From Humisphaera borealis (GTDB lineage: Bacteria; Planctomycetota; Phycisphaerae; Tepidisphaerales; Tepidisphaeraceae): a DNA stretch of 64,000 nucleotides. Positions within the stretch are counted from its first letter, which is position 1, and each line of letters starts with the position of its first letter. Positions 42,658 to 62,208 of the stretch are shown here, piece after piece. The position numbers and the translations under genes are program-made. The notes under the pieces are model-generated. The model did no database searches. It had not been told where the DNA came from and saw nothing but the letters and a program-made list of their open reading frames with translations. The DNA lies in contig NZ_CP063458.1 of assembly GCF_015169395.1 (NCBI RefSeq), positions 6,820,001-6,884,000 of the forward strand, given 5' to 3'.

Positions 42658-42729
<72 letters not shown>

Positions 42730-42849
42730 CTTAGATAACTCAAGCCGAATCCAATACTTGGATACCTTCCGACGGTCGGAAGAGCGGCACGAAGAGGACG
42801 GGTTTTTCTGGGTGATCCAGAGAAACCGAAAACCCTCGGAGTGTTCGCC

Positions 42850-44223
42850 ATGCCCCGACCGAAAGCTACCCACCCCGCGTACTGTCTGCACCGCCGAAGT
42901 GGTCGCGCCTACGCCACCATCGCCGGCAAGCAACACACCTTCCCGGGCCCGCACGGGTCTGATGAATCTCGCTCTGCATACGACCTGCTGATTGCCCAAT
43001 GGCTAAAGGGCGGACGCGTCTTGCCCGCCGTGAAGGGCGGCACCGGCCCCACCGTGTCGATGATCGCTTGCGACTTCTGGCGCTATGCGGAGAAGCGATA
43101 CGTCGCCGCCGACGGCACCCCGACCGGCGAGGCGGAGAACTACCGCTACGCCCTGCGGATCCTCCGCAGGCTGTACGCCAACGTGCCGGCGGTTGAGTTC
43201 GGGCCGAAGAAACTAAAGGCGCTTCGAGAGTACGCGTTGATGGACCGGACGGAGCAGGACGATGAGGGGCGGGAAGTCGTCGTCGCGGGATGGTCGCGCA
43301 CCTACTGCAATCGGCAAGTCGATCGCATTCAGAACATCTTCCGCTGGGCCGCGTCGGAAGAGCTGATTCCCGTGGCCGTGTCTCAGGCGCTCGATACCGT
43401 GGAATCACTCCGCTACGGCACCTCGGGCGCTCGCGAGACGGAAGCCGTCGTCGGTGTCCCTGATGCCCTGGTCGACGCGACGTTGCCCTTCCTTCCGCCG
43501 TCCATCGCCGCCGTCGTGAAACTCCAGCGCCTTACCGGCGCTCGCGGTGGGGAACTGCTGAAGCTTCGGACCTGTGACATCGACATGACCGGCGACGTGT
43601 GGAAGTTCAAGCCGGCGGACCACAAGACAAAACACAAGGGCAAGGTCCGCGTCATCCGCTTCGGGCCGCAGGCGAAAGACATCCTTACCGAGTTCCTCCG
43701 CCCCGATGTCCAGACCTACCTCTTCCGCCCCGTCGACGCCAACGCCTGGATGATCGAGCAGGCGAAGAAACGAGCCGCGGACCGGAAGGCACCCCCGCCG
43801 ACGCCTTCACGGTTGGCGCGGCTGGCCGATCGGAACGCGGTCGAGTTCCGTCCGAAGTACGATAAGAACGCCTACGCTCTGGCCGTCGCCCGTGCCTGTG
43901 TCGTCGCCTTCCCATTGCCGGGGGATCTGGCCCGCGTCAAGGTACCCTGTTTGAAGTCGAACGGCCGACGTCACCTTCGCTGGGAGACGCCCGAGGAATG
44001 GAAGGCCCGATTGGGCAACTGCTGGCTGGAAGTGATGCGGTGGCGTGACGATCACCATTGGCACCCGCATATGCTGCGCCACGCCAGCGCATCGAAGATC
44101 CGGCGGGAGTCCGACCTGGACGCGAGCCGGATCATCCTGGGACATTCAGAGCAGGCGATGACCGAGCATTACGCCGAGGTTGATGATCGCCGAGCTGATG
44201 AGGTCATCGCCAAGCTGGGCTAG
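42850..44223 (+). CDS. tyrosine recombinase / integrase
   Basis: 457 residues from ATG 42850 (GGAG eight bases upstream). The catalytic domain carries the tyrosine recombinase set: Arg I in LQRLTGARGGELLKLRTCDI, a Lys in KTKHKGKVRVIRFG, the H-x2-R box in HWHPHMLRHASASKIRRESD, and LGHSEQAMTEHYAEVDDRRA with the final His and nucleophile Tyr. An unusual 100-residue stretch (about 295-395) separates Arg I and the H-x2-R box. The N-terminal half contains a core-binding SAM-like helical region. Position directly after tRNA-Gly argues that it integrated an island using the tRNA 3' end. Confidence 0.9.
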   Translation: MPRPKATHPAYCLHRRSGRAYATIAGKQHTFPGPHGSDESRSAYDLLIAQWLKGGRVLPAVKGGTGPTVSMIACDFWRYAEKRYVAADGTPTGEAENYRYALRILRRLYANVPAVEFGPKKLKALREYALMDRTEQDDEGREVVVAGWSRTYCNRQVDRIQNIFRWAASEELIPVAVSQALDTVESLRYGTSGARETEAVVGVPDALVDATLPFLPPSIAAVVKLQRLTGARGGELLKLRTCDIDMTGDVWKFKPADHKTKHKGKVRVIRFGPQAKDILTEFLRPDVQTYLFRPVDANAWMIEQAKKRAADRKAPPPTPSRLARLADRNAVEFRPKYDKNAYALAVARACVVAFPLPGDLARVKVPCLKSNGRRHLRWETPEEWKARLGNCWLEVMRWRDDHHWHPHMLRHASASKIRRESDLDASRIILGHSEQAMTEHYAEVDDRRADEVIAKLG

Positions 44224-45282: not shown

Positions 45283-46165
45283 TTCCGAGTTTTACGAAGC
45301 CAAGGAAGCTTAGTCCGAGCTTTTCGTACCGGGTGGCCAGTCTCCGGCACTCTTTCAATCAGCCCACGGCCTGCTCGATGCGGGATCGTTTCCGGTAGGT
45401 TTTCTTGTCGAAACGTTCGCCTATGGGGCGTTTCTGGTTGCTCTTTCGCGGGATGACCGGCTCGATGCCGCAGTCTTTGAGGAACTCGCGAGTTGATTCG
45501 TAGCTGTATCCCTTGTCGCCTGCCAGTTGATCGGGCCAGCCGATCCGACGAGGTCTGCGGACACTGTGGATCAGGTTGTGGAGTTGCGTCGATTCGTGCG
45601 TCTGACCGGCCGTGAGGGTGGCTCCGAGGATAAGGCCCTTGCCGTCAGTAACCAGGTGGAGTTTCGATCCCCATCCGCCGCGGCTGCGGCCCAAATGGTG
45701 GTCGTCGGGTTCGAGGGTGTCGAGCGGGTGCTTTTTTTTGCGAGCACCGGCCGCGGCCCGGCCGGCGCGGATGTTCGTGCCGTCGACCAGCCACAGGTCC
45801 CAGTCGATCTTGCCGGCCTTGTCCAGTCGGATCTGAAGGGCCTTGAGGATCTTGTCGAAGGTGCCGTCGCGACGCCAGCGGTTGAAGCGTTGGTTGACCG
45901 TTCCGAACTTGCCGTAGCGTTCGGGCAGGTCACGCCAAGGAGCGCCCGAGCGGAGAATCCAGAGCATGCCGTTGAGGACGGTGCGATGATTGAGCCACTT
46001 GCCGCCGCGAGCCTGCCTGGGAAACAGGTCCTTGAGAAGGGCCCATTGATCGTCCGTGATTTCGTAGCGAGCCATCAGAACCTCCGTGTGGAGGCAGCAT
46101 GGCATGCAATAATAGAAAGCGCAATTCCTAACGAGCGCCGAACTTGGCATCCATTAGACAGAGCC
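45239..46165. mobile_element. IS5-family insertion sequence, 927 bp
   Basis: Perfect 16-bp terminal inverted repeats GGCTCTGTCTAATGGA at 45239-45254 and, reversed, 46150-46165. The flanks show a 2-bp target duplication TA (45237-45238 and 46166-46167), as in the IS427 group of IS5. It holds one minus-strand DDE transposase gene. The perfect repeats point to recent insertion. Confidence 0.92.
45359..46075 (-). CDS. IS5-family transposase with premature stop
   Basis: 238 residues from ATG 46075, which has GGAGG five bases upstream. N-terminal DUF4096-like region (YEITDDQWALLKDLFPRQAR; LNGMLWILRSGAPWRDLPER) and the DDE core: first Asp in WLVDGTNIRAG, second in LAGDKGYSYES, Glu in SRIEQAVG. Right after AVG a TGA stops the frame, yet the same frame continues for 40 sensible codons (LKECRRLATRYEKLGLSFLG and onward) as in other IS5 transposases, which have Trp or Phe here. 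A TGG to TGA change is the simplest explanation. The catalytic triad remains but the C-terminal helix is lost, so activity is doubtful. Confidence 0.9.
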   Translation of the reverse strand: MARYEITDDQWALLKDLFPRQARGGKWLNHRTVLNGMLWILRSGAPWRDLPERYGKFGTVNQRFNRWRRDGTFDKILKALQIRLDKAGKIDWDLWLVDGTNIRAGRAAAGARKKKHPLDTLEPDDHHLGRSRGGWGSKLHLVTDGKGLILGATLTAGQTHESTQLHNLIHSVRRPRRIGWPDQLAGDKGYSYESTREFLKDCGIEPVIPRKSNQKRPIGERFDKKTYRKRSRIEQAVG

Positions 46166-47153: not shown

Positions 47154-47360
47154 GTGTTGGGTAAAGAGCTCTACAACGCTCGCAAGAAGGCAGCCCTTTC
47201 GCAGGAAGTGGTGGCTGCTCGCGCTGGCATTTCGAGGGAGTACTTGAGCCAGCTCGAAAACGACAAGAAGTCGCCGACCGTTCGAGTGTTCCTGAATCTC
47301 TGTCGCGCGTTGGGCGTTTCGGCTTCGCGTTTGATCGAGAAGCTGGATAAAGCGGGTTAA
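47154..47360 (+). CDS. small XRE/Cro-type HTH regulator
   Basis: 68 residues starting at GTG 47154 (TTG follows at once). The whole protein is one HTH_3 domain: LGKELYNARKKAALSQEVVA, then ARAGISREYLSQLENDKKSP and TVRVFLNLCRALGVSASRLI. No ligand or dimerisation domain is attached. Such short Cro/C-like proteins control their own promoter in phages, islands and restriction systems; no restriction gene is seen here. A palindromic operator candidate lies just upstream. It stands alone: the next gene begins 251 bases later. Confidence 0.85.
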   Translation: MLGKELYNARKKAALSQEVVAARAGISREYLSQLENDKKSPTVRVFLNLCRALGVSASRLIEKLDKAG

Positions 47361-47611: not shown

Positions 47612-50600
47612 GTGTCGAAATCAGTCGTCGCAGCGGTCCTCGTTTTCCTGCTCTGTGGGTGCGACGGCGAGAAATCGCCGAAACCCGCGGCCAACAGCAA
47701 CGGGACGACTCGTCCAGTACCGGCCACCTCGCCTGCGCGTGTTTCCACTCCGGTGAAGCGTCCAACGCCCCCAATCGGCTTTCGGCCGTCCGCCACCCCC
47801 AATCCATCCTTTCGCTCTCGACTCCTGCCTCCTGCGACGCCTGCCGAGGTTCGCACGGTGGCGATCATCAACGGAACGGGACGCGAGGCTGTCGCCGAGC
47901 CGCTTCCTACGCTGCTGCTGACGGAACTCCAGGCCCAGACGAATCTGCGTCTGGTGGAACGCGATCGCATTGATGCGGCGATGAAGGAACTGTCGCGCTC
48001 GGCGACTGGTGCGAGCGACTCGGCGACGGCACTGAAGCTCGGCAAGCTCATCACCGCCGACGCCTTTGTCATGCTCTCCGTGCCGTCCGTCAATGAGACA
48101 AAGGGCGGCGTCAGGGTTCGCATTGTCGAGGCCCGGGCGGGTCTTCTGCTGGACGAGGGGATGGTCGAAGCGCAGCATCTCAAGGCGCCCCTCGACGCGC
48201 TCGTTGGACGCCTGATGGCCGCTTTCGCCCGCGCGCCCAAACAGGGAGGCAAGACACGTTATGTCGGCCTTCTCGACGTGCGGTCCGAAGAAGTCGGACG
48301 TGCATTGGACGCAACAGCGGGTGACCTGCGGAGCCTCATCAGCGCCGAATTGCGAGCCATGCCTGATGTATTCGTGCTGGAGCGCTCCGACATGGGACGC
48401 CTCGCCGATGAGAGTGCGCTGGCGGAGATTCCGGTCGCGTTGCGCGGTTCATCCACGTTACTGGAAAGCGGCATTCGGAAAGAGGGCACGGACCTGGTCG
48501 TCACGATCCGTAGCAAAAGCTCAGCCGGCGCGGTTGGCGAGGAACGGGTGATCCGCGGGCCCGCCGATGGGTTGGTGAAGTTGCGTCCGCAGTTGGTCGC
48601 GGCGATCGCCCGTCTGCTGTCAATCGCTCCCCCTGTGGTAGAGGCGATCGATCCGCAGCTTGAGGCGTCGGCGTTCAGCGAGCGGTCCCGGCAACTCGCA
48701 TCGCACGGAGCCCTCCGCGCCGCCGCATTGGCCGCCGATGTGGCACTGGCGCTGGACCCCACGCAGGAGCGCCGAAATTTTGCGTACTTGAAGTGGCGCG
48801 CGGCCGCCGATGCGAATCCCGCCTTTGAAATGAATAAGGGATCGAGCACGTACCTTCCAGTTGACGCACCAGCCAGATACGAGGCGGCCATTCGCGCGGC
48901 GGTCCTTCAGATTGCTTCGTTCCACGACTTGGAAGCAACCGTTGCGCAGTCCGGCGACGTCAAAGCCCCCGGCGGTCTTGAGTTCGTGCGTACTGGTCCG
49001 TTGCATCGGTATGCGTCGGCCGCAACCGCCGCTGGTGAGCGGTGGAGTTTACGCGACATTTTTGACAAGAACCTGTCGCTGCAGTTCGATCCCGCTGATG
49101 AAGAAATCCTGAGACAGCGCGAGCGGCTCCGGGAACTCTGCCAGATGAAGTTCGATCGCCTGGTGCGGATCTGCAGGTCGAAGAACTGGTCCACGTCAGA
49201 TCTGCTCGCGGAGAAGCTTTATTCGATCGGCCGATTCTGTGAAACGGACGAAGAAGCGAATCGATGGCTCGCAGACTGTTTGAAGATGCATGCCGCGGAT
49301 GAATGGCGGAAGGACCTGTCTGCCCATGCCGAAGCCGTGTTTTACGTAGCACTGGCAAGTGTCGGAAAGAAGAGTTATCTCCCGTACCGTCGTCCAATCC
49401 CAAGGGTGAATAACGACTTGCTGCTGGGAAGTACCGATCCCAAGGTCAAGCTCGCGGGTCAGGCCGTGGTACTTGATAGCCTGAGCCCTGGTTCCCCGGC
49501 GCAGTTGCAATTGGCGGAATCAATGATCAGGCTGGCGTGGGAAGCGACGCCGGTCGATGAACCGTCAACGGCGCGGATCGTGGCCTATGAGTATTTTGAC
49601 GCGTGGGATTCTCCCATTAAGAAGGCCGTAGAGGTCCTGTCCCGAAACGACGGCGGTAAGCCGGCGAGACGCACGTTCGACGCACTGCTTGCCCACTCGG
49701 CCCAGGAAGGGGATACGACCCGTCTGCTCGCTCACAACATTCTCATTCGCCACTTCGTCTATGCGCTGCGTTCCGACAAGACCGGCTCGCATCTCGACGC
49801 GTTGGAAGCTCAGTTGAGTGCATTCCCGTCGCAGGCATTCGTCGAGGGGAATCGAAAGCATTATTCCGGCCTGATTACCAGCGAACGCAAGTCGCTGAAC
49901 CAACCCGCGCGCACCAACTTCCTTGCGACGGCATTTCAGATCACCCCCGTTCCACTCGATGGGATTGCCGCTCCTTCCAAGCCACATTGGATGGTTGCCG
50001 AGGGGAAAGATTTTCTCATTCTTTGCGAGCAATCCCAGCCCAATTTCGTCAGGCAAAAATGGGCGCTTTGGTCCGTCCCAATCCAAGGGGGCCGCGCCAC
50101 CGCGGTCGCCACCGGCGAAGGTGACCGATGGAGCATCAGAGCGATCAACGGCCATGCGAAGCTTGGCGATACTCACTACTTCGCAACCGCCAAGGGCTTG
50201 CTGGCCGGCAGCGGCGGAAAGCTTCAGTTGCTCACCGACGCCCAGGGATTGCCGGTCACCAATGTTACAAGTATCGCCGTTTTCGGCGGGAGATTGCTTC
50301 TCGGTTTTGAAGGCGGCCTCAGTTGGTACGACCCGGCAAGCCGCACCGCGCAGGCCGTCGCCTCCACAAAGGCAGTCACGATTAAGAACGTGCTGGACGG
50401 GGGTCTCAAGTACACGATCTCGTCACTGGTGGCCGATTCCACCCGCAAGTGCATCTGGGTCGGCGTCACGGGTGGCGAGCGGCACGGGGTCTTTCAGTTC
50501 CTCTCGGACGGCACCCTGAACCGGGTCGTCAAGGCTCAGGACTATTCGGGCGGTCAACTCAACGTGGATGGAGACAGGCTTCTATTTGTGTCTCACTCGG

Positions 50601-50884
50601 GAATCGTCGGATATCGCTTTGCCTCCCGCGACCTTGATCCGCCGATCAAGGTTCAACTCTACGGGAGGAATTCGGCCGCCTCCGGCGTGCAATGGTTGAT
50701 GCTGAACGAAACGACCGTGCTGACTTACGAGCAATGGGCGGGTCCCACGCGGACCTACAGCGACTACGTCGGGCCGCTGATTCGCGTTGAGGGTCGCGTC
50801 TACTTCGCCGCGCCTCGTAATAGGTTCGCTTCGTCAACCACAATCCTGGGCATCGTGGATGTCGCCAAGGCGGGGGCGCCATGA
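47612..50884 (+). CDS. large lipoprotein with CsgG-like N-domain and C-terminal propeller-like region
   Basis: 1090 residues. Type II signal peptide (VAAVLVFLLCGC) marks a probable lipoprotein, followed by a Pro/Thr-rich linker. Residues about 80-200 resemble CsgG (TVAIINGTGREAVAEPLPTL; LRLVERDRIDAAMKELSRS), and a second copy follows at about 205-330 (RYVGLLDVRSEEVG; DVFVLERSDMGRLADES). The middle is helical with no known family. The last 300 residues are short beta repeats (SIAVFGGRLLLGFEGGLSWY; LVADSTRKCIWVGVTGGERH), a likely beta propeller of the two-component-reporter type. It starts a three-gene operon; the next ATG overlaps its TGA. Function unknown. Confidence 0.65.
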   Translation: MSKSVVAAVLVFLLCGCDGEKSPKPAANSNGTTRPVPATSPARVSTPVKRPTPPIGFRPSATPNPSFRSRLLPPATPAEVRTVAIINGTGREAVAEPLPTLLLTELQAQTNLRLVERDRIDAAMKELSRSATGASDSATALKLGKLITADAFVMLSVPSVNETKGGVRVRIVEARAGLLLDEGMVEAQHLKAPLDALVGRLMAAFARAPKQGGKTRYVGLLDVRSEEVGRALDATAGDLRSLISAELRAMPDVFVLERSDMGRLADESALAEIPVALRGSSTLLESGIRKEGTDLVVTIRSKSSAGAVGEERVIRGPADGLVKLRPQLVAAIARLLSIAPPVVEAIDPQLEASAFSERSRQLASHGALRAAALAADVALALDPTQERRNFAYLKWRAAADANPAFEMNKGSSTYLPVDAPARYEAAIRAAVLQIASFHDLEATVAQSGDVKAPGGLEFVRTGPLHRYASAATAAGERWSLRDIFDKNLSLQFDPADEEILRQRERLRELCQMKFDRLVRICRSKNWSTSDLLAEKLYSIGRFCETDEEANRWLADCLKMHAADEWRKDLSAHAEAVFYVALASVGKKSYLPYRRPIPRVNNDLLLGSTDPKVKLAGQAVVLDSLSPGSPAQLQLAESMIRLAWEATPVDEPSTARIVAYEYFDAWDSPIKKAVEVLSRNDGGKPARRTFDALLAHSAQEGDTTRLLAHNILIRHFVYALRSDKTGSHLDALEAQLSAFPSQAFVEGNRKHYSGLITSERKSLNQPARTNFLATAFQITPVPLDGIAAPSKPHWMVAEGKDFLILCEQSQPNFVRQKWALWSVPIQGGRATAVATGEGDRWSIRAINGHAKLGDTHYFATAKGLLAGSGGKLQLLTDAQGLPVTNVTSIAVFGGRLLLGFEGGLSWYDPASRTAQAVASTKAVTIKNVLDGGLKYTISSLVADSTRKCIWVGVTGGERHGVFQFLSDGTLNRVVKAQDYSGGQLNVDGDRLLFVSHSGIVGYRFASRDLDPPIKVQLYGRNSAASGVQWLMLNETTVLTYEQWAGPTRTYSDYVGPLIRVEGRVYFAAPRNRFASSTTILGIVDVAKAGAP

Positions 50885-51924
50885 ACATCCTGGCTCTTTA
50901 CGTTCTGGTGCTCTCACAACAAGGCTTCTGGCTTGGCGGGTCGGATTACGCGATCACGTTCAAACGTACCGACGCCGCCTGGCCCGCTAATACGGAGTCG
51001 ATCGACATCGCCTGGCAGTTGCGACTGGGCGATGAAGTCCTCGCAAGCGGAAAGCTTGCCGCGAAGAAGGACGAGTCGCCTACCGTGCGGCTTGCGGTCC
51101 CCGAAGTGCGAGTCCGCACGGAATTGCGGCTGACACTTTCCGTGTCGGCCGGTGGCAATGCACTGCTGAAAGACCAGCAGAAGGTCGAGGTCTTCCCGCG
51201 ACCGGACAGACAGCGACTGCAGCGCTCGCTTGGCGGGAAACGAATCTGCATTTTGCGGCGCGGAAAGCCGGTCGCCGGCGACGCCGACGAGCGACTTCTG
51301 GCGATGCTGAAGGACAGTGGCGTGGTTTACGAGGTTGTTTCCGACGACACCAAGCTGGCGATCCGATCGCCGGAGATCGTCGTCGTCCTCGCGTCGGCAT
51401 TGCCCGGCGGACTTTGGAAGGACTCTCTCCCGGAACTTGCCGAGACCGGGGTTTCGGTTTTGGTTCTCGAGCAGCGGGTAGCCGCCGAAATTGCCGGCTA
51501 CCCGTTGACGCCACGAAAGACGATCGAGCGGATTGCTGTCACCGAGCGCCATCCGCTGCTTGAAGGCTTTTCGACGCGCGAAATTGAGGCGCTATTATCC
51601 GGCCCCTCGCACCAACCCATTGCGATGCGACTTCCGGCGGACGCGCCGGCGCAGGAAGTCGTATATTGGGCCGTGCCCGGCGGCGGGCCGGCGATGCCGA
51701 TCGACTGTATGATCGCGGTGCGCACCCTGGGCAAGGGACGTATCATCTATAACCAGTTGCCGTGGGAGGATCATGCGGCGGACGCCCGGGCAGTGACCAT
51801 GTTGTTCTCCACGCTGGAGTGGATGGTCACGCCACCCGAGCCGACCCTTCCTCCCAGCGCTCGTCCGCCGCCGGCCGCGACCCGTCCTGTTGAGACCCCG
51901 AACCGAATCGAAATTAAGCGATAG
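50881..51924 (+). CDS. exported protein of unknown function, amidotransferase-like fold possible
   Basis: 347 residues, beginning with an ATGA overlap with the preceding gene. The N-terminus (MNILALYVLVLSQQGFWLGG) could be a short signal sequence. Residues about 15-105 look like a beta-sandwich (IDIAWQLRLGDEVLASGKLA), and about 115-310 alternate strands and helices as in ThuA/GATase1-like domains (KRICILRRGK; VVYEVVSDDTKLAIRSPEIV; RHPLLEGFS; LGKGRIIYNQLPWEDH), without a visible Cys-His-Glu triad. A Pro-rich tail closes it. This resembles the accessory domain found beside planctomycete glycosidases. Probably works with its operon partners at the cell surface. Confidence 0.55.
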   Translation: MNILALYVLVLSQQGFWLGGSDYAITFKRTDAAWPANTESIDIAWQLRLGDEVLASGKLAAKKDESPTVRLAVPEVRVRTELRLTLSVSAGGNALLKDQQKVEVFPRPDRQRLQRSLGGKRICILRRGKPVAGDADERLLAMLKDSGVVYEVVSDDTKLAIRSPEIVVVLASALPGGLWKDSLPELAETGVSVLVLEQRVAAEIAGYPLTPRKTIERIAVTERHPLLEGFSTREIEALLSGPSHQPIAMRLPADAPAQEVVYWAVPGGGPAMPIDCMIAVRTLGKGRIIYNQLPWEDHAADARAVTMLFSTLEWMVTPPEPTLPPSARPPPAATRPVETPNRIEIKR

Positions 51925-51964
51925 CGATTCCAGAATATTGACCTCGTAGAAAGGCCTCGAACCC

Positions 51965-52969
51965 ATGCCATCGCGATTCACAATTCTTCGTGCAACGATC
52001 TCTGGCGCAGTACTGCTCTGCGTCGGACTTGCCAATGCCCGGGCCGCCGATCCCGCGCCGGCCACCAAGCCCGCGCCCAAGCCGGCCGCGATCACCGTCG
52101 CGATCATGGACTTTGACACCGGCGGCAAGACAGATGCCAATCTCGGCAAGCAGATTCCCGACGCACTGGCCGCGATGTTGTCCGACGCGCCGGGCTTTCA
52201 ACTGGTCGATCGATCGGAGATTTCCCGCGTGCTTGCCGAGCAGGCTGCGAGCCTTACCGGGCTCGTCGAAGCGGAGAAGGCGGTGAAGGTCGGCAAGCTT
52301 GTCGGAGCACAGGTGCTGATCGTCGGCAAGGTGTTTCCACTGGATCGAGATACATATGTGACCGCCAAACTCATTGGAACCGAGACATCGATCGTCAAAG
52401 CCGTCATGGCCAAGGGCAAGCCCGACGAGGACATCGGCACGCTTTTGGTCACCGTCGCCGACAAGATCTCCACCACACTCCGCACCCAGGGTCAGGCCCT
52501 CCTCCCAGATGGCGCGGTGGTGGATCCCATTCCAGACCTGAAGAAGCGACTTGCCGGCAAGAAGAAGCCCATCGTGCGTGTAACCGTCACGGAGAAACAT
52601 CAAACGCCGCTACGCTCCAACATCGATCCGGCGGTCGAGACGGAAATTCGCCGCATGCTTATTGAGTGCGGCTTCACGGTACTGGCCGACGATGCCAAAG
52701 ACCGCAAGCCGGACATCACGGTTGGCGGCGAGGCGTTCAGCGAGTTCGGCGCGTTGATCGGCAACCTGATCGCTTGCAGCGCGCGAGTGGAACTCAAGGC
52801 GACTGACGAACGTGCTGGCAAGCTGGTCTTCACGGACCGCGCCGTTACTAGAACCGCGGACATTTCTGAAGCCATTGCCGGCAAGTCGGCGCTACAGAAG
52901 GGCGGCTATCAACTCGGCCTCAAACTTCTTGAACACTTCGCCCAGACGCTGCCGGATGAAAAGCGATAG
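51965..52969 (+). CDS. exported CsgG-like protein
   Basis: 334 residues with a signal peptide (LRATISGAVLLCVGLANARA-A). Residues about 45-180 match the CsgG/FlgO-like pattern: AITVAIMDFDTGGKTDANLG, FQLVDRSEISRVLAEQAASL, VGKLVGAQVLIVGKVFPLDR. The second half (TPLRSNIDPAVETEIRRMLI, then ECGFTVLADDAKDRKPDITV) resembles the LpoB/penicillin-binding-activator-like arrangement that often accompanies CsgG folds. No lipobox is seen. It is 40 bases downstream of the previous gene. CsgG itself is the curli secretion pore, but many CsgG-like proteins are periplasmic and of unknown role; no curli subunit genes are in the window. Confidence 0.7.
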   Translation: MPSRFTILRATISGAVLLCVGLANARAADPAPATKPAPKPAAITVAIMDFDTGGKTDANLGKQIPDALAAMLSDAPGFQLVDRSEISRVLAEQAASLTGLVEAEKAVKVGKLVGAQVLIVGKVFPLDRDTYVTAKLIGTETSIVKAVMAKGKPDEDIGTLLVTVADKISTTLRTQGQALLPDGAVVDPIPDLKKRLAGKKKPIVRVTVTEKHQTPLRSNIDPAVETEIRRMLIECGFTVLADDAKDRKPDITVGGEAFSEFGALIGNLIACSARVELKATDERAGKLVFTDRAVTRTADISEAIAGKSALQKGGYQLGLKLLEHFAQTLPDEKR

Positions 52970-53270: not shown

Positions 53271-53864
53271 TCAGGCGGACTTCAAGTACCGATACACCGT
53301 TGGGCGCGTCAGCCCCGTCGCACTGGCCATCGCGGTGATCTTCTCCCCTTCGCGGGCCATTCGCTTGATCGTTCGGACCTGCTCATCCGTGACCGATAGC
53401 CGCCGGCCCTTCTCCGAGCCGCCCCATGTCTTCCCGCGAGCCTTGGCGATCGCCTGGCCCGCGCGAACGCGTTCGGCGCGGACTTCTGTCTCGTATTGTG
53501 CCACCGAAGCCAGCACGTTGGCCATAAGGCGACCAGCGGCGGTGTGCAGGTCGATGCCGTCCTTGATGCTCACGAGGTTCACGCGACGTTCGCCGAGCTC
53601 TTCGAATAGTGCCGTGAGCCCTTTGGCCGTTCTGCCCAGCCGATCAAGGCGCCAGCAGACGATGCGAGACACCTTTCCGAGTCGCAAGTCCTCCATCAAC
53701 TTGCTCCACCCTCGACGCTCCATCGTCTTCCCGGTGAACTGATCGCGGTACCAGCTCGTAGTGTCGCCGCAGGCGTCGGCATACCGCCTGAGATCGGGCT
53801 CCTGGGAGGCGGTATCCTGGGACTTGGTAGAAACCCGGCAGTAGATAGCGGTGTGCTTGGACAT
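53271..53864 (-). CDS. serine recombinase (resolvase/invertase)
   Basis: 197 residues. The catalytic domain begins TAIYCRVSTKSQDTASQEPD with the nucleophile Ser in the CRVSTxxQ motif, and has RIVCWRLDRLGRTAKGLTAL with the D-R-x-x-R motif and GRLMANVLASVAQYETEVRA leading to the E helix. The C-terminus is a resolvase helix-turn-helix (ITAMASATGLTRPTVYRYLK). Length and layout fit the Tn3 resolvase/Hin invertase class. No res site, inverted repeats or transposase of its own were recognised. It probably marks a second mobile segment at the right side of the accessory region. Confidence 0.93.
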   Translation of the reverse strand: MSKHTAIYCRVSTKSQDTASQEPDLRRYADACGDTTSWYRDQFTGKTMERRGWSKLMEDLRLGKVSRIVCWRLDRLGRTAKGLTALFEELGERRVNLVSIKDGIDLHTAAGRLMANVLASVAQYETEVRAERVRAGQAIAKARGKTWGGSEKGRRLSVTDEQVRTIKRMAREGEKITAMASATGLTRPTVYRYLKSA

Positions 53865-54415: not shown

Positions 54416-56263
54416 TTACTTAGATGCAGGCGCGTCAGTCGTTGGCTTCGTGGTTGAGGAACGGACTGGCGCCAGATGCTTGTCGAGGAATAAGAACAGC
54501 AGTGGACGGAAATCCCGGGCTGGCGAAACCAGGGCGAATGTGTGCGGCGCGTTCGGCACGATCTCCAGTTGGTGCATGACGCCAGCCTTTTTCAGTGCCG
54601 CGGCCATCGTTTCGGCCTGGCTGTGCGGCACCGTTTCGTCCGCGGTGCCATGCACGAGCAGCATCGGGGCATCATTCTTACTGACGTAAAACACCGGCGA
54701 GGCTTTCCGGTAAACATCTGGATTCTCCTCTCTTGTTTGGAGAAACATCTTCATGTCGTGGTAATTCGGCAGGTCGAGGGCGCCGTAGAAGTTGATGGCG
54801 CAGCGGACACGCGTGCTCACGCCAGCCATGGGTGCCGCCGGCTCCAAGCCGTCTGCTTCGTCGGTAACTGCCAGCATCGCGGCAAGATTCCCGCCGGCAG
54901 AGTTGCCGAAAGCCGCGATGCGATCGGCATCGATCTGCAAGCGGTCGGCGTTGACCCGTAACCAGCGAACGGCGGTCTTGGCATCAAGCAAACTCTGCGG
55001 CCAGGTGGGATTCTTGACGCCTTTGTTCCAGAGGCGGTAGTTGATGCTCATGCACACGTATCCGTGCTGAGCCATTTCCACAGCCATCTGAACTTCCCGA
55101 CCCTTGGCCTTGTCGCCGTCATTGAAGCCGCCGCCGTGCATCAGAAGCACTGCCGGCACGCGCTGGCCATCCTTCAACGTGGGGAGATAGAGGTCGGCCT
55201 TTTCGCGACGGTCGGAGGCGAGGTACATGATATCCCTGTCGACGTGGATGCCTTTGGGAATCTCCGGATCCTTCTCGCTTTTCCAGTCTTTGGGCTCGGT
55301 GGCGTTGATTGGGCTGAGGAGATTGGTTGTAAAAGCGAGATTGCCAGCGACTCCAATCCCGGCGGTCGTCACATCAAACGTTCGCTGCAAGCCGTTGTGA
55401 TTCTGAGCGGAACCGGGTTGACGTTCCTCTTCCGCACGAAGCTGAGATTCCGGTTTCCCAGAGGCGACGGTCTTCTTTGCGGCCCACCTGATGGCTTCCA
55501 AGATGTGCTGACGCGCGAAAGGTGTGCTCAGCGATCGCAGATCATGACCGAATTCCGTGTAGAAGAATCGGCCGCCGGTCGCGGGCTCGTGGGTCCAGGC
55601 GATCGGGTGATCGGCGCCCATCGGCTTGCCGTTGCGAGTCTTAAAATAATCGCGCACGGGTGTATACGTGGTCTCGTCCACGCGCATGAGCACGTTGAAG
55701 CCGGGCTTCCCGGTGACGGCACGATCGTGATTGGTCCAGTCCGCTTCGATCCAGAACTCCGCAGACTGGCCTTTGACGGCGGGATGATCTTTCGCGGCAG
55801 GATCGATCTTCACCTTCGCCTTGCTGAAGTCAGAGTCGCTGTTGAAGTCGCAACCGCCGAGCTCATTCAGCCACGGCCACTTCGTCTGATGCACCAGCGC
55901 CGCATGCAGGCCGACGATGCCTTTTCCGCCATTCGTGAACCATTCCTCCACCGATTTGCGTTGCTCCTCGGGCAGCACCTTGTCGAGTTCGTTGGCGTTA
56001 TTGAGCACGAGCACGTCATAGCGGGCCAGTTCGTCGGCCCGCAGATCCTTCCAGTGCTCAGTCACATCCACCTCAATGCCATTCTCGTGCCCCAACAAGA
56101 CGAGCCAGCGATTGATCTTCGGGATATCGACATGCCGGTAGTAACCCGTGTTGGAGTAGACGAGCACTCTCAATCCCGCACCACTCGACTTGGTCGGGCT
56201 CGGATCGTGCGCGAAGGCGGCGCGGCACAGAAGTAGAAGGAGAACCGGGAGGATGTGTTTCAT
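54416..56263 (-). CDS. secreted ThuA-alpha/beta hydrolase fusion
   Basis: 615 residues from ATG 56263 (another ATG two codons earlier). Signal peptide MKHILPVLLLLLCRAAFA. Residues about 30-265 are a ThuA domain (RVLVYSNTGYYRHVDIPKIN; GGKGIVGLHAALVHQTKWPW; GGRFFYTEFGHDLRS). Residues about 325-600 are an esterase of the BD-FAE/Aes type: oxyanion motif LLMHGGGFNDGD, nucleophile FGNSAGGNLAAM, Asp in LVHGTADETVPHSQA and His in PNAPHTFAL. ThuA is linked to sugar (trehalose, 3-keto-glycoside) metabolism, so the fusion suggests release of acyl groups and processing of sugars outside the cytoplasm. Substrate not known. Confidence 0.85.
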   Translation of the reverse strand: MKHILPVLLLLLCRAAFAHDPSPTKSSGAGLRVLVYSNTGYYRHVDIPKINRWLVLLGHENGIEVDVTEHWKDLRADELARYDVLVLNNANELDKVLPEEQRKSVEEWFTNGGKGIVGLHAALVHQTKWPWLNELGGCDFNSDSDFSKAKVKIDPAAKDHPAVKGQSAEFWIEADWTNHDRAVTGKPGFNVLMRVDETTYTPVRDYFKTRNGKPMGADHPIAWTHEPATGGRFFYTEFGHDLRSLSTPFARQHILEAIRWAAKKTVASGKPESQLRAEEERQPGSAQNHNGLQRTFDVTTAGIGVAGNLAFTTNLLSPINATEPKDWKSEKDPEIPKGIHVDRDIMYLASDRREKADLYLPTLKDGQRVPAVLLMHGGGFNDGDKAKGREVQMAVEMAQHGYVCMSINYRLWNKGVKNPTWPQSLLDAKTAVRWLRVNADRLQIDADRIAAFGNSAGGNLAAMLAVTDEADGLEPAAPMAGVSTRVRCAINFYGALDLPNYHDMKMFLQTREENPDVYRKASPVFYVSKNDAPMLLVHGTADETVPHSQAETMAAALKKAGVMHQLEIVPNAPHTFALVSPARDFRPLLFLFLDKHLAPVRSSTTKPTTDAPASK

Positions 56264-56449
56264 GGCCATTGGTTGTTGGGTTGCTCGGTCTTCGTTTCTT
56301 CCGGAGCGGGCTTCGGGAGCGGGCCAAACTCGCTTTCGGGCATCGAGTGCAGTCGCTTCAGCAGTGCTTCGAGATCGGTATTTGAGCTCAGGTTATCATA
56401 CTCCAGCGTAGCATTTCCGTGTCCTCGCCTGAGGAGGTGACATCGCGGC

Positions 56450-58351
56450 TCATTTGCCCAGTAACGTTCCTACCACCGGCTTCAGCTTGCTCGCAAAGAC
56501 CTCATATCCGGCCGCGCCAGGGTGAAGGTATTTGTCGGAATACAACTCCGATTTTAGCGTGCCATCGGCGTGAGTGAAATCGCTGGCGAGATCGAGGAGT
56601 TGAACCTGCGGATCGCTATTGAGTTTCAGCGTGTCGAGGGCGGCGTTGATATTGATGACTTCTTTGCCAACATCCTTGCTGGGATTGAAGGCGGGAAGGA
56701 TCTTCACGAGTAGAATCTGAGATTTTGGGCAGCGAAGGCGGAGATTTTCGACGCAGAGCTTGATGCCATGTGCCGCAGCGGCAGCGGGAACGCCGTTGGC
56801 TTTGACGAGTGGGGAATTGTTCACTCCGATCATGAGGATGATGATCTTTGGCGAAACGCCGTCGAGTGCGCCGTGATCGAGGCGCCAGAGGATGTGCTCC
56901 ATGCGATCGCCGCCGATGCCGAGGTTCACCGTCTTCGTATCGCCGAAATGCTTTTGCCACGCAGCGTTGAAGGGCGCGCCGTCCCAGCCACCGCCCCAGC
57001 CCTGGGTGATGCTGTCGCCGAGCAATGCGATGTCGATGTTGGCTCCAGCGGCTTTTGCTTTTTCGATAATCGTGGCGTGGTGATCGAGCCAGTCGTTGCC
57101 TTCGCCGCCGCCTTTTGGTTTCCAATGGCCCGCCGTCGGTGTGACAAACCACATCTCCGGCAGATGCTTCTGCACCTCGTGGCCGGGTTTGCGCTCGTAT
57201 TCGCTCTTCGTAACCCAGGCCCTTTCCGCATCGGTCAAGGGCCAACCCGTGAGTTGCGGGTCGAGCTCGCCTTCGTTGTAAGGCGAGTAGGGATAGACGA
57301 GCGATTTGCCATCGGCGGTCTTCGGCGTCGGCTGGAGCATCGCTTCGTTGGGCGTGGCTGAAAAAGCGCTGGAGGCCGTCTGGCTTGATGGCGACGAGGC
57401 GAAAGGAGACGCAGGCACTGGAGCTGCAGCGCCGGTCTTCTTCGCCGGTATGACCACGTCGCCGCCAAGCCCCTTGCCGCCGACTAACTTGTCGAGCAGC
57501 GGCTTCAATCGCTCGGCATAGACGGCGTAGCCTTCCAGCGAGAGATGGATGTTGTCGGGCGTGAAGAGGGCCTTCTTGATGTTGCCATCGGCGTTGGCAA
57601 AATTGCCCCACAGGTCGATCACGTGTATCTTCGGATCGCTGTCGAGCTTCAGCGCGGCGAGTGCGGCGTTGGTCTTCTTGATGTTCTCGTAGAAGGGAAC
57701 GCCCGGCGCTTGGCAGGGCACAATCTGGGCCGCGATCACCTCGGCCTTGGGGAACTTCTCGCGCACATTCGCCACGCACATCTGCACACCCCTGGCGACA
57801 GCCTCCACCCCGGTCTCGGGGACGAAGAACATGTTGTTGTTGCCGATCATCACGATGACAACCTTCGGCTCCAGGCCCTCCACGCCCCCGTGATCAAGCC
57901 GCCAGAGTACGTTCTGCGCCTTATCGCCGCCGATGCCGATGTTGATCGTCTTGTAGTTGGCGAAGTGTTTCTTCCAGGCATCGTTGAGCACTCCCTTGTC
58001 GAGCGGGCTGCCCCACTGCTGGGTGATGCTGTCGCCAACGAGCAGGACGTCGATCGGACCCTTGTTGGTCTGCACGTAGTCGACTAGCTTCGCATGCGTG
58101 TCGAGCCAGCTCGTCCCGCCCCAGTGTCCGGCACTGGGAACAACGGGCCAGAACTGCGGAAGGTGCTTGTTCGACTCGCGCCCTGGCCGGCGGTCGTGTT
58201 CGGGCTTGTCGACAACGTACGCCCGCTCTTCCGCCGTTAGCGGCCAGCCCGTTTTCTGCGGCTCGGCGGTGACGTGCGGGTAGTCCAATGCGCAGGCGGC
58301 AGTCGTTAAGACGAAAGCGGGGAACAGGCAGAGCAGTCGGCGAAGGGACAT
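56450..58351 (-). CDS. secreted tandem SGNH hydrolase, two full domains
   Basis: 633 residues from ATG 58351 (GGAG six bases upstream). Signal peptide MSLRRLLCLFPAFVLTTAAC-ALA region. Domain 1: VLLVGDSITQQWGSP, MIGNNNMFFVP, DNIHLSLEGYAVYAERLKPL. Domain 2: IALLGDSITQGWGGGWDGAP, LMIGVNNSPLV, YSDKYLHPGAAGYEVFASKL. Both keep Ser, Gly, Asn and Asp/His. Each domain is preceded by its own GWPLT-A/D-AERA segment, showing that the whole unit, not only the catalytic core, was duplicated. Domain 1 is nearly the same as the single domain at 38546-39640. Likely an extracellular carbohydrate esterase. Confidence 0.9.
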   Translation of the reverse strand: MSLRRLLCLFPAFVLTTAACALDYPHVTAEPQKTGWPLTAEERAYVVDKPEHDRRPGRESNKHLPQFWPVVPSAGHWGGTSWLDTHAKLVDYVQTNKGPIDVLLVGDSITQQWGSPLDKGVLNDAWKKHFANYKTINIGIGGDKAQNVLWRLDHGGVEGLEPKVVIVMIGNNNMFFVPETGVEAVARGVQMCVANVREKFPKAEVIAAQIVPCQAPGVPFYENIKKTNAALAALKLDSDPKIHVIDLWGNFANADGNIKKALFTPDNIHLSLEGYAVYAERLKPLLDKLVGGKGLGGDVVIPAKKTGAAAPVPASPFASSPSSQTASSAFSATPNEAMLQPTPKTADGKSLVYPYSPYNEGELDPQLTGWPLTDAERAWVTKSEYERKPGHEVQKHLPEMWFVTPTAGHWKPKGGGEGNDWLDHHATIIEKAKAAGANIDIALLGDSITQGWGGGWDGAPFNAAWQKHFGDTKTVNLGIGGDRMEHILWRLDHGALDGVSPKIIILMIGVNNSPLVKANGVPAAAAAHGIKLCVENLRLRCPKSQILLVKILPAFNPSKDVGKEVININAALDTLKLNSDPQVQLLDLASDFTHADGTLKSELYSDKYLHPGAAGYEVFASKLKPVVGTLLGK

Positions 58352-58389
58352 AGGATTCTCCAGGTGGTCAGTCGATCTGAATAATCGTG

Positions 58390-58671
58390 CTGCGCTTTGA
58401 TCTCGGACAGGATGCAATTGATCTCACGGCGGTCGGCGTATCCCGGTTCGGCACCGGTCGCATACGTGATCATCTGAGCCGCTAAGGCCCGTGCGACCTT
58501 CTTTGGCTCGGAAACAGTCAGCCGCTGAAAGTCGGCGAAGTTCTGGAAGGGCTCCGCCTGCGCGGTTTCGCCGCTGGCATCAACTGGTGGACCGGCCTTG
58601 TACCGCACCCCTTGGCCGTCGGGGAACTTGAAACTGACGGAAGCTCCTTTGTCGAGGGAGCGATACAGGTA
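58390..58671 (-). pseudogene. C-terminal fragment of a DUF1592-type gene
   Basis: About 94 codons closely match the C-terminal part of the protein at 39643-42240 (YRSLDKGASVSFKFPDGQGV; QNFADFQRLTVSEPKKVARA; ITYATGAEPGYADRREINCI), also at nucleotide level. There is no start, no heme or DUF1592 core, and the last 15-20 residues are missing; the frame runs on into the next gene region. It lies 39 bases upstream of the tandem SGNH gene on the same strand. Confidence 0.85.
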
Positions 58672-58957
58672 ATCTTCGGCAGCAAACGATCCCATGCCGA
58701 CGGCGCGGCGATCTTAGGGCCGCAATCTTGGGACGCAGGATCAGCAGCATGCAGGGCTGCCGACTCGACGGCGGAGCGGGGTTTCGGGCCGAACCAGGTG
58801 AAGTCGAGCTTCGCCACGCCCGCAACGCAACCCGTTCCCGCCACTATCATTTGAGTGATCCGGAAAGAGATCCGCGATCCTAGATACGCTGATGGTACCG
58901 CCGACTCGGCGCATGCCTCAAAAATTCGAACGGACTGTTTGCCAATCCCACCGTGAA

Positions 58958-61900
58958 ATGATCCACAAGAACCTGCCTCATCTCATCGCCTTCATCGTCG
59001 CTTCATTGGCGTCCGCGATCGCCCTGGGGCAGGTGTCCGTCGATCCGGACCCGAACGGCGTCCTGATCAAGCCCATTCCGGACAAGTTGATCGTGCTGAC
59101 CTTTGATGATGCTCCGGCCAGCCATGCCACGGTGGTCGCGCCGATCCTCAAGTCTCTTGGCTTCGGCGGGACGTTCTATGTCTGCAACTTTGATTCGTTC
59201 AAGACGCGGAAGGATTGGTATCTGACCTATCGGCAGATGGTCGCAATGAACGCCGACGGCTTTGAGATCGGCAACCACACGCACGGCCATGGAGGAGGAC
59301 TTGCGAACTATTTGCGGATGGAAGATGAAGTCATCGCCAACCACGGCCCGAAAATGACGACCGCCTGCTGGCCGGTGTATCAGGTAGCCTGGTCGATCTG
59401 TCCGGATCTGGCCGCACGCGGCTATACCTTTGGGCGGGGTGGACACGAACGGCCTTACCGGCCGACGGTTGACAATCCGTTTGATGTGCCCTCGTTCACG
59501 ATCAAGGACGGGCCGCCGATCGAAAACTTCGTGAAGCAGGCGCAGATGGCCTGCAAGGGCCGGGTCGTCGTCTTCTGTTTTCACGGCGTGCCGGACATGG
59601 AGCATCCAGGGGTGAGCCTGGAGCCGGCGAGCTTTAAGGCGATGATGCAGTATCTGAAGGACAACAACTACCAATGCATCGCCATGCGCGACATGGCGAA
59701 GTACATCGACCCGGCCAAGGCGGCAAAGCTGCCGCGCACCGCCAACAGTGCCAAAGACGCGCCGCCTTTTGATCGCGTCAAGGACGACAAGCCCTTCGTC
59801 GCGCCACCCGCCTGTGACATTCGGGAATTCTCGTTCCCCGGCTTACCGCCCGCGAGCATCTCCAAGACCAGCATCCTTCTTACCGTTGCCTATGGCACGG
59901 ACGTTAAGGCACTCTCGCCTCATATCAAAGTCTCCCCTGATGCCACCATCGCGCCAGCGAACGGCACCGTTCGCGACTTTTCCAAGCCGCAGACCTACAC
60001 CGTCACCGCGCGGGATGGGTCCACGAAAAGCTACCTCGTGACGGTGAAAACCAGGGCCGCGAGCGACGCCAAGGAGATGCTGACTTTCGAAATGGCGGCC
60101 ACGCCGGGGATCACGATTTCTCGCGATCAGGTTACGGCTTACCTGCCGTCGTATTCGAGCCTGAAGGAACTTGCTCCAAAGTTCACGCTGTCGCCATTTG
60201 CCACGGCGGTTCCCAGTTCGGGGACGTTTCTGGATTTCACAAGGCCGCAGCGTTACCGGATCACCGCGCAGGACGGATCATCGCGGACGGTCACCGTCTC
60301 CGTGGTGCATAAGGACAAACAAAACGTGTTCGTGTGGAAGAGGGCGGAGGACGGCAACTGGAGTGATGCCACGAAGTGGTGGGCCAGCGAAGGGGCGATG
60401 GTTAGCTCACCGGACAACATCATCGACTTCACGCAAGCCGGTGAATGTGCGGTTAAAAATGATCTGAATGCGGGCTTCCTACTGAACCAACTCGTGCTCG
60501 GAGATCGTTCGGGGCGTCTGACCGTGAACGGCAACGGCCTGACCTTCGCAAAGGAACCCGCGAGCCAAATCCTCCCCTCGATCCGTGCGACGAAGTGCCA
60601 GCGGGTGGACATCAATCTGCCCTTGACGCTCCAGGATGATTTCACCGTGAACACCTTTCCGGGCAAAGATCCCAATTGCTTCATCAGTTTCAACGAAGTC
60701 ATCTCCGGGCCCGGCTCGCTGATATTGCATAGCTCAGGCGATCCGAATGTCGCTGGGACCAACTTCCATGATGTGCATTTCGGGATACTGCAACTCAACA
60801 ACTCGAACACCTACACTGGCGGAACCGTCATCAATGGCGGCAAGATCAATGTGAGGAAGACGAATGGCCTGGGCACCGGGACGATTACCCTGAGCAGCTT
60901 TGGCACACTCTCCACCGAAGCCAATCTTGCCAACCCAGTGGTGATCAACCAGGGCACGCTCTTCCATAGCACATTGAGTGGTCCGGTCACCCTCAATGGG
61001 ACCGCCAACCTCATCGGCAAGTGCACGATTTCGGGGCCGATCAGTGGGCCCGGCGGATTGACGATGCTCGGCACCAACGGGACCTATCTCAGCATGATCC
61101 CCGGCGGCACCGTCAGCCTCGCTGGCGCGAACACCTACACCGGCCCGACCATCGTTTTCCCCGGCACGCTGATTGTAAAAAATGCCGCCGGCCTTTACGG
61201 CGCAGATGCAGCGCGATGGACGCCCGGGAACATCTCGATTCAAAAGGCTGCCACGCTACGTCTGAACGTCGGCGGCCCGGGCGAGTTCACGGGCCAGCAG
61301 ATCGGCACGCTGCTCGACAATCTCACGCGCCAGATCAATGACAACGGCTTGATGGGCGGGTCATATGTGTCGCTCGACACTGCAGGCGCGACGGGCCTGG
61401 TCACCCTTTCAGCCGACATCGCCGATTCCAAGGGGCCGGGTGGCGGGGCGTTTGTCATTCGGAAGTGCGGGGCCGGCACGATGCGGCTCTCAGGAAACAA
61501 CAGCTACACCGGCCAGACGATTCTGGAGGGCGGGGCATTGGTCGTCTCCTCGCTCAACAGCGTGACCAAAGCGCTTCGACAAGCCAGCAGCAGCCTGGGC
61601 GCGCCGACCGACATCGAAGCCGGCGAAATCGTCATCGGCGAGGAAGGCAAGGATGGCGATTGCGGCCTGATCTACACCGGCCCGGGCGAAAGCTCCGACC
61701 GCGTGATGAACCTGGCGGGGAAGAACACCATCGTCACGTTCGACCAATCCGGTGCCGGCCTGCTGAAACTCACCAGCCCGATCCTCATCTCCGGCTACGG
61801 AGCCAGCAAAACCATCGTTCTCCGCGGCGACACCGCCGGCACCGGCGAGATCGCAGGGGATCTGTCTGACCCCCACGACCGGGCGGGCAAGGCGAAGACC

Positions 61901-62182
61901 GCCGTCACCAAATTCGGCCGAGGCAAATGGGTGCTCTCCGGCACGAACAGCCACAGCGGTCCGACTCGGGTGACCCAGGGCACCCTTTCGCTTGCCAGCG
62001 TCCGGAGCCTGAGTCATCAGAGCGAAGTCGAAATCTCCGAAGGCGCAGTTCTGGAACTCGACTTCAAGGGTGAAGTGCACGTCGGCAAATTGAGTTTTGG
62101 CGGAATCGCACTACCCGCGGGGACCTACGACGCAAAGAACTCGCCGAAGTTCATCAAGGGCTCTGGAGTGCTTAAGAACTAG
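58958..62182 (+). CDS. polysaccharide deacetylase with DUF5018-like and autotransporter-type repeats
   Basis: 1074 residues from ATG 58958 (frame open to 58892; no strong ribosome site). Signal peptide LIAFIVASLASAIALG-Q. Residues about 30-265 are a NodB/polysaccharide deacetylase domain: LTFDDAPASHATVVAPILKS (catalytic Asp pair) and FEIGNHTHGHGGG (H-x3-H metal pair). Residues about 285-450 hold two Ig-like repeats of the DUF5018 kind (PQTYTVTARDGSTKSYLVTV; PQRYRITAQDGSSRTVTVSV). The rest is a beta-solenoid with autotransporter-associated repeats (LNNSNTYTGGTVINGGKINV; LSGNNSYTGQTILEGGALVV; LSGTNSHSGPTRVTQGTLSL). Predicted to remove N- or O-acetyl groups from a glycan while displayed or anchored at the surface. 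A DUF2341 gene follows. Confidence 0.87.
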   Translation: MIHKNLPHLIAFIVASLASAIALGQVSVDPDPNGVLIKPIPDKLIVLTFDDAPASHATVVAPILKSLGFGGTFYVCNFDSFKTRKDWYLTYRQMVAMNADGFEIGNHTHGHGGGLANYLRMEDEVIANHGPKMTTACWPVYQVAWSICPDLAARGYTFGRGGHERPYRPTVDNPFDVPSFTIKDGPPIENFVKQAQMACKGRVVVFCFHGVPDMEHPGVSLEPASFKAMMQYLKDNNYQCIAMRDMAKYIDPAKAAKLPRTANSAKDAPPFDRVKDDKPFVAPPACDIREFSFPGLPPASISKTSILLTVAYGTDVKALSPHIKVSPDATIAPANGTVRDFSKPQTYTVTARDGSTKSYLVTVKTRAASDAKEMLTFEMAATPGITISRDQVTAYLPSYSSLKELAPKFTLSPFATAVPSSGTFLDFTRPQRYRITAQDGSSRTVTVSVVHKDKQNVFVWKRAEDGNWSDATKWWASEGAMVSSPDNIIDFTQAGECAVKNDLNAGFLLNQLVLGDRSGRLTVNGNGLTFAKEPASQILPSIRATKCQRVDINLPLTLQDDFTVNTFPGKDPNCFISFNEVISGPGSLILHSSGDPNVAGTNFHDVHFGILQLNNSNTYTGGTVINGGKINVRKTNGLGTGTITLSSFGTLSTEANLANPVVINQGTLFHSTLSGPVTLNGTANLIGKCTISGPISGPGGLTMLGTNGTYLSMIPGGTVSLAGANTYTGPTIVFPGTLIVKNAAGLYGADAARWTPGNISIQKAATLRLNVGGPGEFTGQQIGTLLDNLTRQINDNGLMGGSYVSLDTAGATGLVTLSADIADSKGPGGGAFVIRKCGAGTMRLSGNNSYTGQTILEGGALVVSSLNSVTKALRQASSSLGAPTDIEAGEIVIGEEGKDGDCGLIYTGPGESSDRVMNLAGKNTIVTFDQSGAGLLKLTSPILISGYGASKTIVLRGDTAGTGEIAGDLSDPHDRAGKAKTAVTKFGRGKWVLSGTNSHSGPTRVTQGTLSLASVRSLSHQSEVEISEGAVLELDFKGEVHVGKLSFGGIALPAGTYDAKNSPKFIKGSGVLKN

Positions 62183-62208
62183 GGAAGACTCGCGGAGGAG
62201 ACCACCTT

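Follow-up and report, generated by a model that had tools for sequence, protein, structure and literature searches.

Organization of the Three-Gene Operon

The window analysed here, a 64,000-nucleotide stretch of a Humisphaera borealis contig, contains three linked genes, A, B and C, two of which encode CsgG-like domains. In line with the preliminary description, which saw no curli subunit, no curli-type match besides CsgG was found in the trio or in the scanned flanking genes. The three genes are located as follows:

47612..50884, + strand: gene A, 1090 aa; putative lipoprotein signal, two CsgG-like domains, TPR-like region, propeller
50881..51924, + strand: gene B, 347 aa; Ig-like domain and GATase1/ThuA-like domain without the catalytic Cys
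51965..52969, + strand: gene C, 334 aa; CsgG-like domain without a barrel-type insertion, and a second domain

The end of A overlaps the start of B (ATGA) and a gap of 40 bp separates B from C; judged by this spacing, the three genes form a single tight operon. A small helix-turn-helix-like ORF (family read by eye) lies upstream of A, at about 47154–47360. Scans for promoters and terminators gave signals no better than those of shuffled sequences.

Domains of the A, B and C Proteins

Gene C encodes two domains:

aa 38–178: CsgG-like domain (Pfam and profile comparison)
aa 185–330: second domain, no fold assigned

The C protein matched the Pfam CsgG family (PF03783) with 36.8 bits, above the cut-off of 20.8, and covered only positions 13–105 of the 210 positions of the profile. 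The scores against LpoB (16.3 bits, cut-off 22.3) and TolB_N (12.4 bits, cut-off 22.4) remained below the thresholds, and the C family taken together showed weak matches to LpoB, FlgO and TolB_N. Both other CsgG proteins encoded in this genome are full CsgG proteins with a glycine-rich insertion, which we take to be the barrel hairpin of CsgG. This insertion was missing from C, where strand runs straight into strand, and a CsgG-type barrel is therefore unlikely; from its sequence, C is probably not a pore. No lipobox was visible by eye in C. The search for a second complete trio in the genome was negative, as no further full-length C was present, and no match to C was found on plasmids. The tree of C was poorly supported and did not place the window copy.

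The two full CsgG-like proteins of the genome (L001, genome position 7036998, and L002, genome position 3368731) showed, by eye, terminal CxxC pairs resembling a zinc ribbon, an odd feature for an exported protein.

Gene A encodes a longer protein with four regions:

aa 78–212: CsgG-like domain 1 (profile-profile comparison)
aa 210–350: CsgG-like domain 2 (profile-profile comparison)
about aa 350–770: TPR-like helical region (weak profile matches to TPR proteins)
about aa 774–1037: propeller (sequence profile, Foldseek and VIA-align)

Taken alone, A scored 18.8 bits against the Pfam CsgG family, under the cut-off of 20.8, and 12 of the 16 members of the A family matched it at E <= 0.01. In profile-profile comparisons, domains 1 and 2 of A both matched domain 1 of C (E values of 1e-17 and 3e-8, respectively), whereas the C-terminal half of C, used as a negative control, reached a probability of about 0.1%. 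The order of strands and helices was similar in both CsgG-like units in the AF model, which is weak (mean pLDDT of 60). The three CsgG-like domains announced by the preliminary description, two in A and one in C, were thus recovered. So was the propeller at the C-terminus of A, on which the three methods agreed. A sequence profile (E 1e-7) and Foldseek (8e-7) both paired it with the extracellular domain of BT4673, and the VIA-align comparison with the sensor domain of this protein (3ott, 3va6) gave a Z score of 17.8 and an rmsd of 2.6 over 172 residues, with 22% identity. In the predicted model, the extracellular sensor domain of BT4673 is the best structural match of the A propeller. The only Pfam match of A was CsgG, and no histidine kinase domain was among its matches. 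TolB was absent from the fold-search list of A, but this list was filled by propeller matches and its absence excludes nothing. The N-terminus of A, MSKSVVAAVLVFLLCGC, was by eye compatible with a lipobox, in line with the earlier designation of A as a lipoprotein. No lipobox was seen in the aligned A relatives, however, and a lipid anchor is therefore not a trait of the family.

The model of the B protein was good (pLDDT 85.7) and showed two domains:

aa 4–107: Ig-like domain (predicted structure)
aa 118–318: GATase1/ThuA-like domain (predicted structure)

The segment aa 115–320 aligned with a GATase1-like fold with a Z score of 12.8 and an rmsd of 4.1 over 188 residues. The position of the nucleophile, column 197, was inferred from the strand 192–195 of the model; over 15 aligned rows it was occupied by E, R, H, A, C, S or G. 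Owing to this variation, a functional amidotransferase was rejected: the amidotransferase-like fold proposed for B stands, whereas the catalytic Cys is not conserved. B further differs from the class I GATase/ThuA-like proteins in that it has an extra Ig-like domain and is exported; signal peptides, like lipoboxes, were read by eye. The Pfam search returned no fitting family for B, and the top Foldseek match was a glycoside hydrolase family 2 (GH2) protein. In 382 sampled genomes, all eight strong stand-alone matches to B were inside C-bearing clusters, with the reservation that the B profile was built from C-bearing loci and may miss distant relatives elsewhere. Most of the weaker matches were in reading frames of 1000–2400 aa, and the three that were scanned all carry GH2 domains.

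Recurrence of the Gene Set in Planctomycetota

Queries with A, B and C were run across the order and the phylum, together with one scan of named genomes; the genomes were a sample and mostly drafts. They yielded 18 distinct loci at which C was either full-length or cut by a contig end, genome duplicates in two collections being counted once. All 18 belonged to Planctomycetota, which was also the most searched group, and the distribution was patchy, at about 3% of the sampled genomes. At the loci elsewhere, identity to the C of the window was 33–47%. B was directly upstream of C at 16 loci, as detected with profiles, and an A-like gene was present in the same cluster and on the same strand at 12, once about 1.4 kb away. 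In L092 and L075 the A-like gene was divergent, and in L094 it was matched weakly; the sequence ended inside C in L058 and L076, and neither B nor A was seen beside C in L060. An apparent B–C fusion in L094 was discarded, as the 744-aa frame proved to be a C extended too far and this locus yielded no B.

The usual order in the relatives was sigma – anti-sigma – B – C – A, some loci having two or three A genes, whereas it was A–B–C–A in L035 and L073 and A–B–C in the window. The gene set and its domain architecture are well supported. The proposal of the preliminary description came through both of its own checks, since the domains do resemble CsgG and the genes are found together in other genomes. 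The preliminary description did not list the TPR-like region of A, the Ig-like domain of B, the second domain of C or the island. The trio is a new, conserved combination of known folds. No description of it was found in the open papers, and an earlier one may exist elsewhere.

One genome showed three consecutive A-like genes (L099:9088-17999) of about 1060, 1100 and at least 828 aa. At L094:4293-8930, the A-like protein beside C had apparent C-terminal ankyrin repeats (by eye), and at L031:3531-7172 a protein starting like a serine/threonine kinase (by eye) contained a CsgG-like domain near residues 950–1020.

An ECF Sigma/Anti-Sigma Pair in the Relatives

A pair of genes for an ECF sigma factor and a membrane anti-sigma factor headed the cluster at 10 of the 18 loci (divergent in L034), and no such pair was beside the genes at the other eight, the window among them. 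The sigma genes of the relatives encode Sigma70 regions 2 and 4, and their anti-sigma genes a hydrophobic segment, with an HxxxCxxC motif in three. The pair resembles known ECF sigma/membrane anti-sigma modules and differs from them in its anti-sigma factor, whose periplasmic part is specific to the cluster. Among the 382 genomes the full-length matches to the anti-sigma factor, four in number, were all beside C, the other matches being limited to part of the N-terminal half; this profile too was built from C-bearing loci, and distant relatives elsewhere may be missed. In the window genome no full-length match was found, and just part of the N-terminal half of the profile was matched. The ECF factor at 1003–1656 of the window was considered as the switch of the trio and rejected, as it lies 45 kb away and has no matching anti-sigma gene. 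For most ECF groups, functional insight is still lacking (PMC8103513). The best reading is that the trio was ancestrally under ECF control and is carried here without the switch.

The Trio Is Cargo of a Genomic Island

The surroundings of the operon contain the following features:

42658..42730, + strand: tRNA-Gly(CCC), island insertion site
42686..42732, + strand: left 47-bp direct repeat, perfect match to the right copy
42841..44223, + strand: tyrosine-type (phage family) integrase, directly after the tRNA-Gly
45359–46150: IS4/5-type transposase, in the island
53271–53864: resolvase, in the island
genome 6890481–6890527, beyond the window: right 47-bp repeat

The repeat corresponds to the 3' part of the tRNA-Gly, duplicated perfectly 27.8 kb away; no tRNA was found at the right copy. 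Because of the tRNA, the adjacent integrase and the perfect repeat at both ends, the trio is placed inside a 27.8-kb tRNA-Gly island, of which it is cargo. Other cargo of this island (window 54416–64000; L103) includes many carbohydrate esterases (ThuA/BD-FAE, GDSL, SASA), as well as two proteins of the polysaccharide-deacetylase type that carry PATR autotransporter-type repeats.

Proposed Function and Alternatives

We propose that A, B and C form a non-pore exported complex for sensing or docking in the cell envelope, belonging to a planctomycete module composed of ECF sigma factor, membrane anti-sigma factor, B, C and A. This reading, to which we assign a probability of roughly 0.45, is based on the sensor-type propeller and the cluster-specific anti-sigma factor of the relatives. 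CsgG and TolB-N belong to one Pfam clan (PMC3173608), the LpoB domain resembles TolB-N and TPR parts are recurrent in the regulators of cell-wall synthases (PMC7267771); this kinship makes docking likelier than transport here. It should be weighed against the sensing reading that propellers bind many partners, and that a fold shared with BT4673 shows no function.

We infer the mechanism as follows, the link to the sigma factor being drawn from gene neighbourhood. In A and C, the CsgG-like domains would provide docking contacts, both to one another and to a partner, in the manner of TolB-N and LpoB domains. The propeller of A would bind a ligand or a partner outside the cytoplasmic membrane, and B would serve as a non-catalytic adaptor. 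In the relatives, the anti-sigma factor may read the state of the complex through its periplasmic part, whereupon the sigma factor would be freed and the operon transcribed. Since the switch is missing here, the trio of this genome would act alone or under another regulator. A bolder version, which we consider doubtful, is a planctomycete signalling route: an extracytoplasmic propeller protein would relay its state, by way of CsgG-like domains and the dead amidotransferase-like protein as adaptor, to an anti-sigma factor dedicated to this task, and the sensing half would also be mobile between genomes, leaving the sigma switch behind.

Among the alternatives, a regulator of the cell wall or of division is unlikely. 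The CsgG/TolB-N-like domains would then touch a cell-wall synthase or a Tol-type partner, as in TolB and LpoB, while the TPR region and the propeller would tether the complex to the envelope. The C family's weak matches to LpoB, FlgO and TolB_N, the likeness of the LpoB domain to TolB-N together with the TPR parts seen repeatedly in synthase regulators (PMC7267771), and the module content of TolB itself, which also couples a domain of the same clan to a propeller, point in this direction. The LpoB and TolB_N scores are, however, under the curated cut-offs. A also departs from TolB and LpoB in having a pair of such domains, an extended TPR-like region and a propeller that comes nearest to the sensor domain of a two-component protein. 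The patchy spread would be odd for a core division factor, and the best match to the UB2H partner domain in the same genome scored 23.3 bits, below the cut-off of 27, in a search at a loose limit where controls matched as well. To a surface complex that senses or binds polysaccharides and travels with carbohydrate genes we give a similarly small chance. The A propeller resembles the sensor domain of a Bacteroides hybrid two-component system, although no kinase or receiver domain is among the Pfam matches of A; weaker B relatives are found inside GH2 proteins, a GH2 protein tops the Foldseek list of B, and the island bears carbohydrate esterases and polysaccharide deacetylases. Against it, the genes around the clusters of L009 and L010 look like ordinary housekeeping genes (two loci, read by eye).

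It is improbable that C together with A forms an outer-membrane secretion channel or an assembly machine of the CsgG type. In CsgG itself, nine subunits build a channel in the form of a 36-stranded barrel (PMC7304575). The likeness to CsgG lies in the domain of C, which passes the Pfam cut-off, and in the two domains of A found by profile comparison, but C matches half of the profile and has neither the insertion nor a lipobox, and the operon contains no cargo gene. A curli channel in particular was rejected, C lacking the insertion and the trio and scanned flanking genes containing no partner genes, a linked curli subunit gene included. Hence, of the two roles put forward in the preliminary description, the envelope sensor gains indirect support from the propeller and the cluster-specific sigma/anti-sigma pair, whereas the assembly machine finds no support in a C protein without the insertion and without a linked cargo gene. 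Finally, the transposase, integrase and resolvase genes around the trio, and a gene order unlike that of most relatives, might suggest that unrelated island genes have come together here by chance. The recurrence at 18 loci already refutes this idea, with B and C adjacent at 16 of them, at 33–47% identity to the window's C and mostly with an A-like gene, and we give it practically no weight.

The module is a defined one: its anti-sigma factor is specific to the cluster, its architecture is concrete, and two of its parts, B and the second domain of C, have no known role. The occurrence of CsgG-like domains in a probable non-pore protein bears on how CsgG annotations are to be read.
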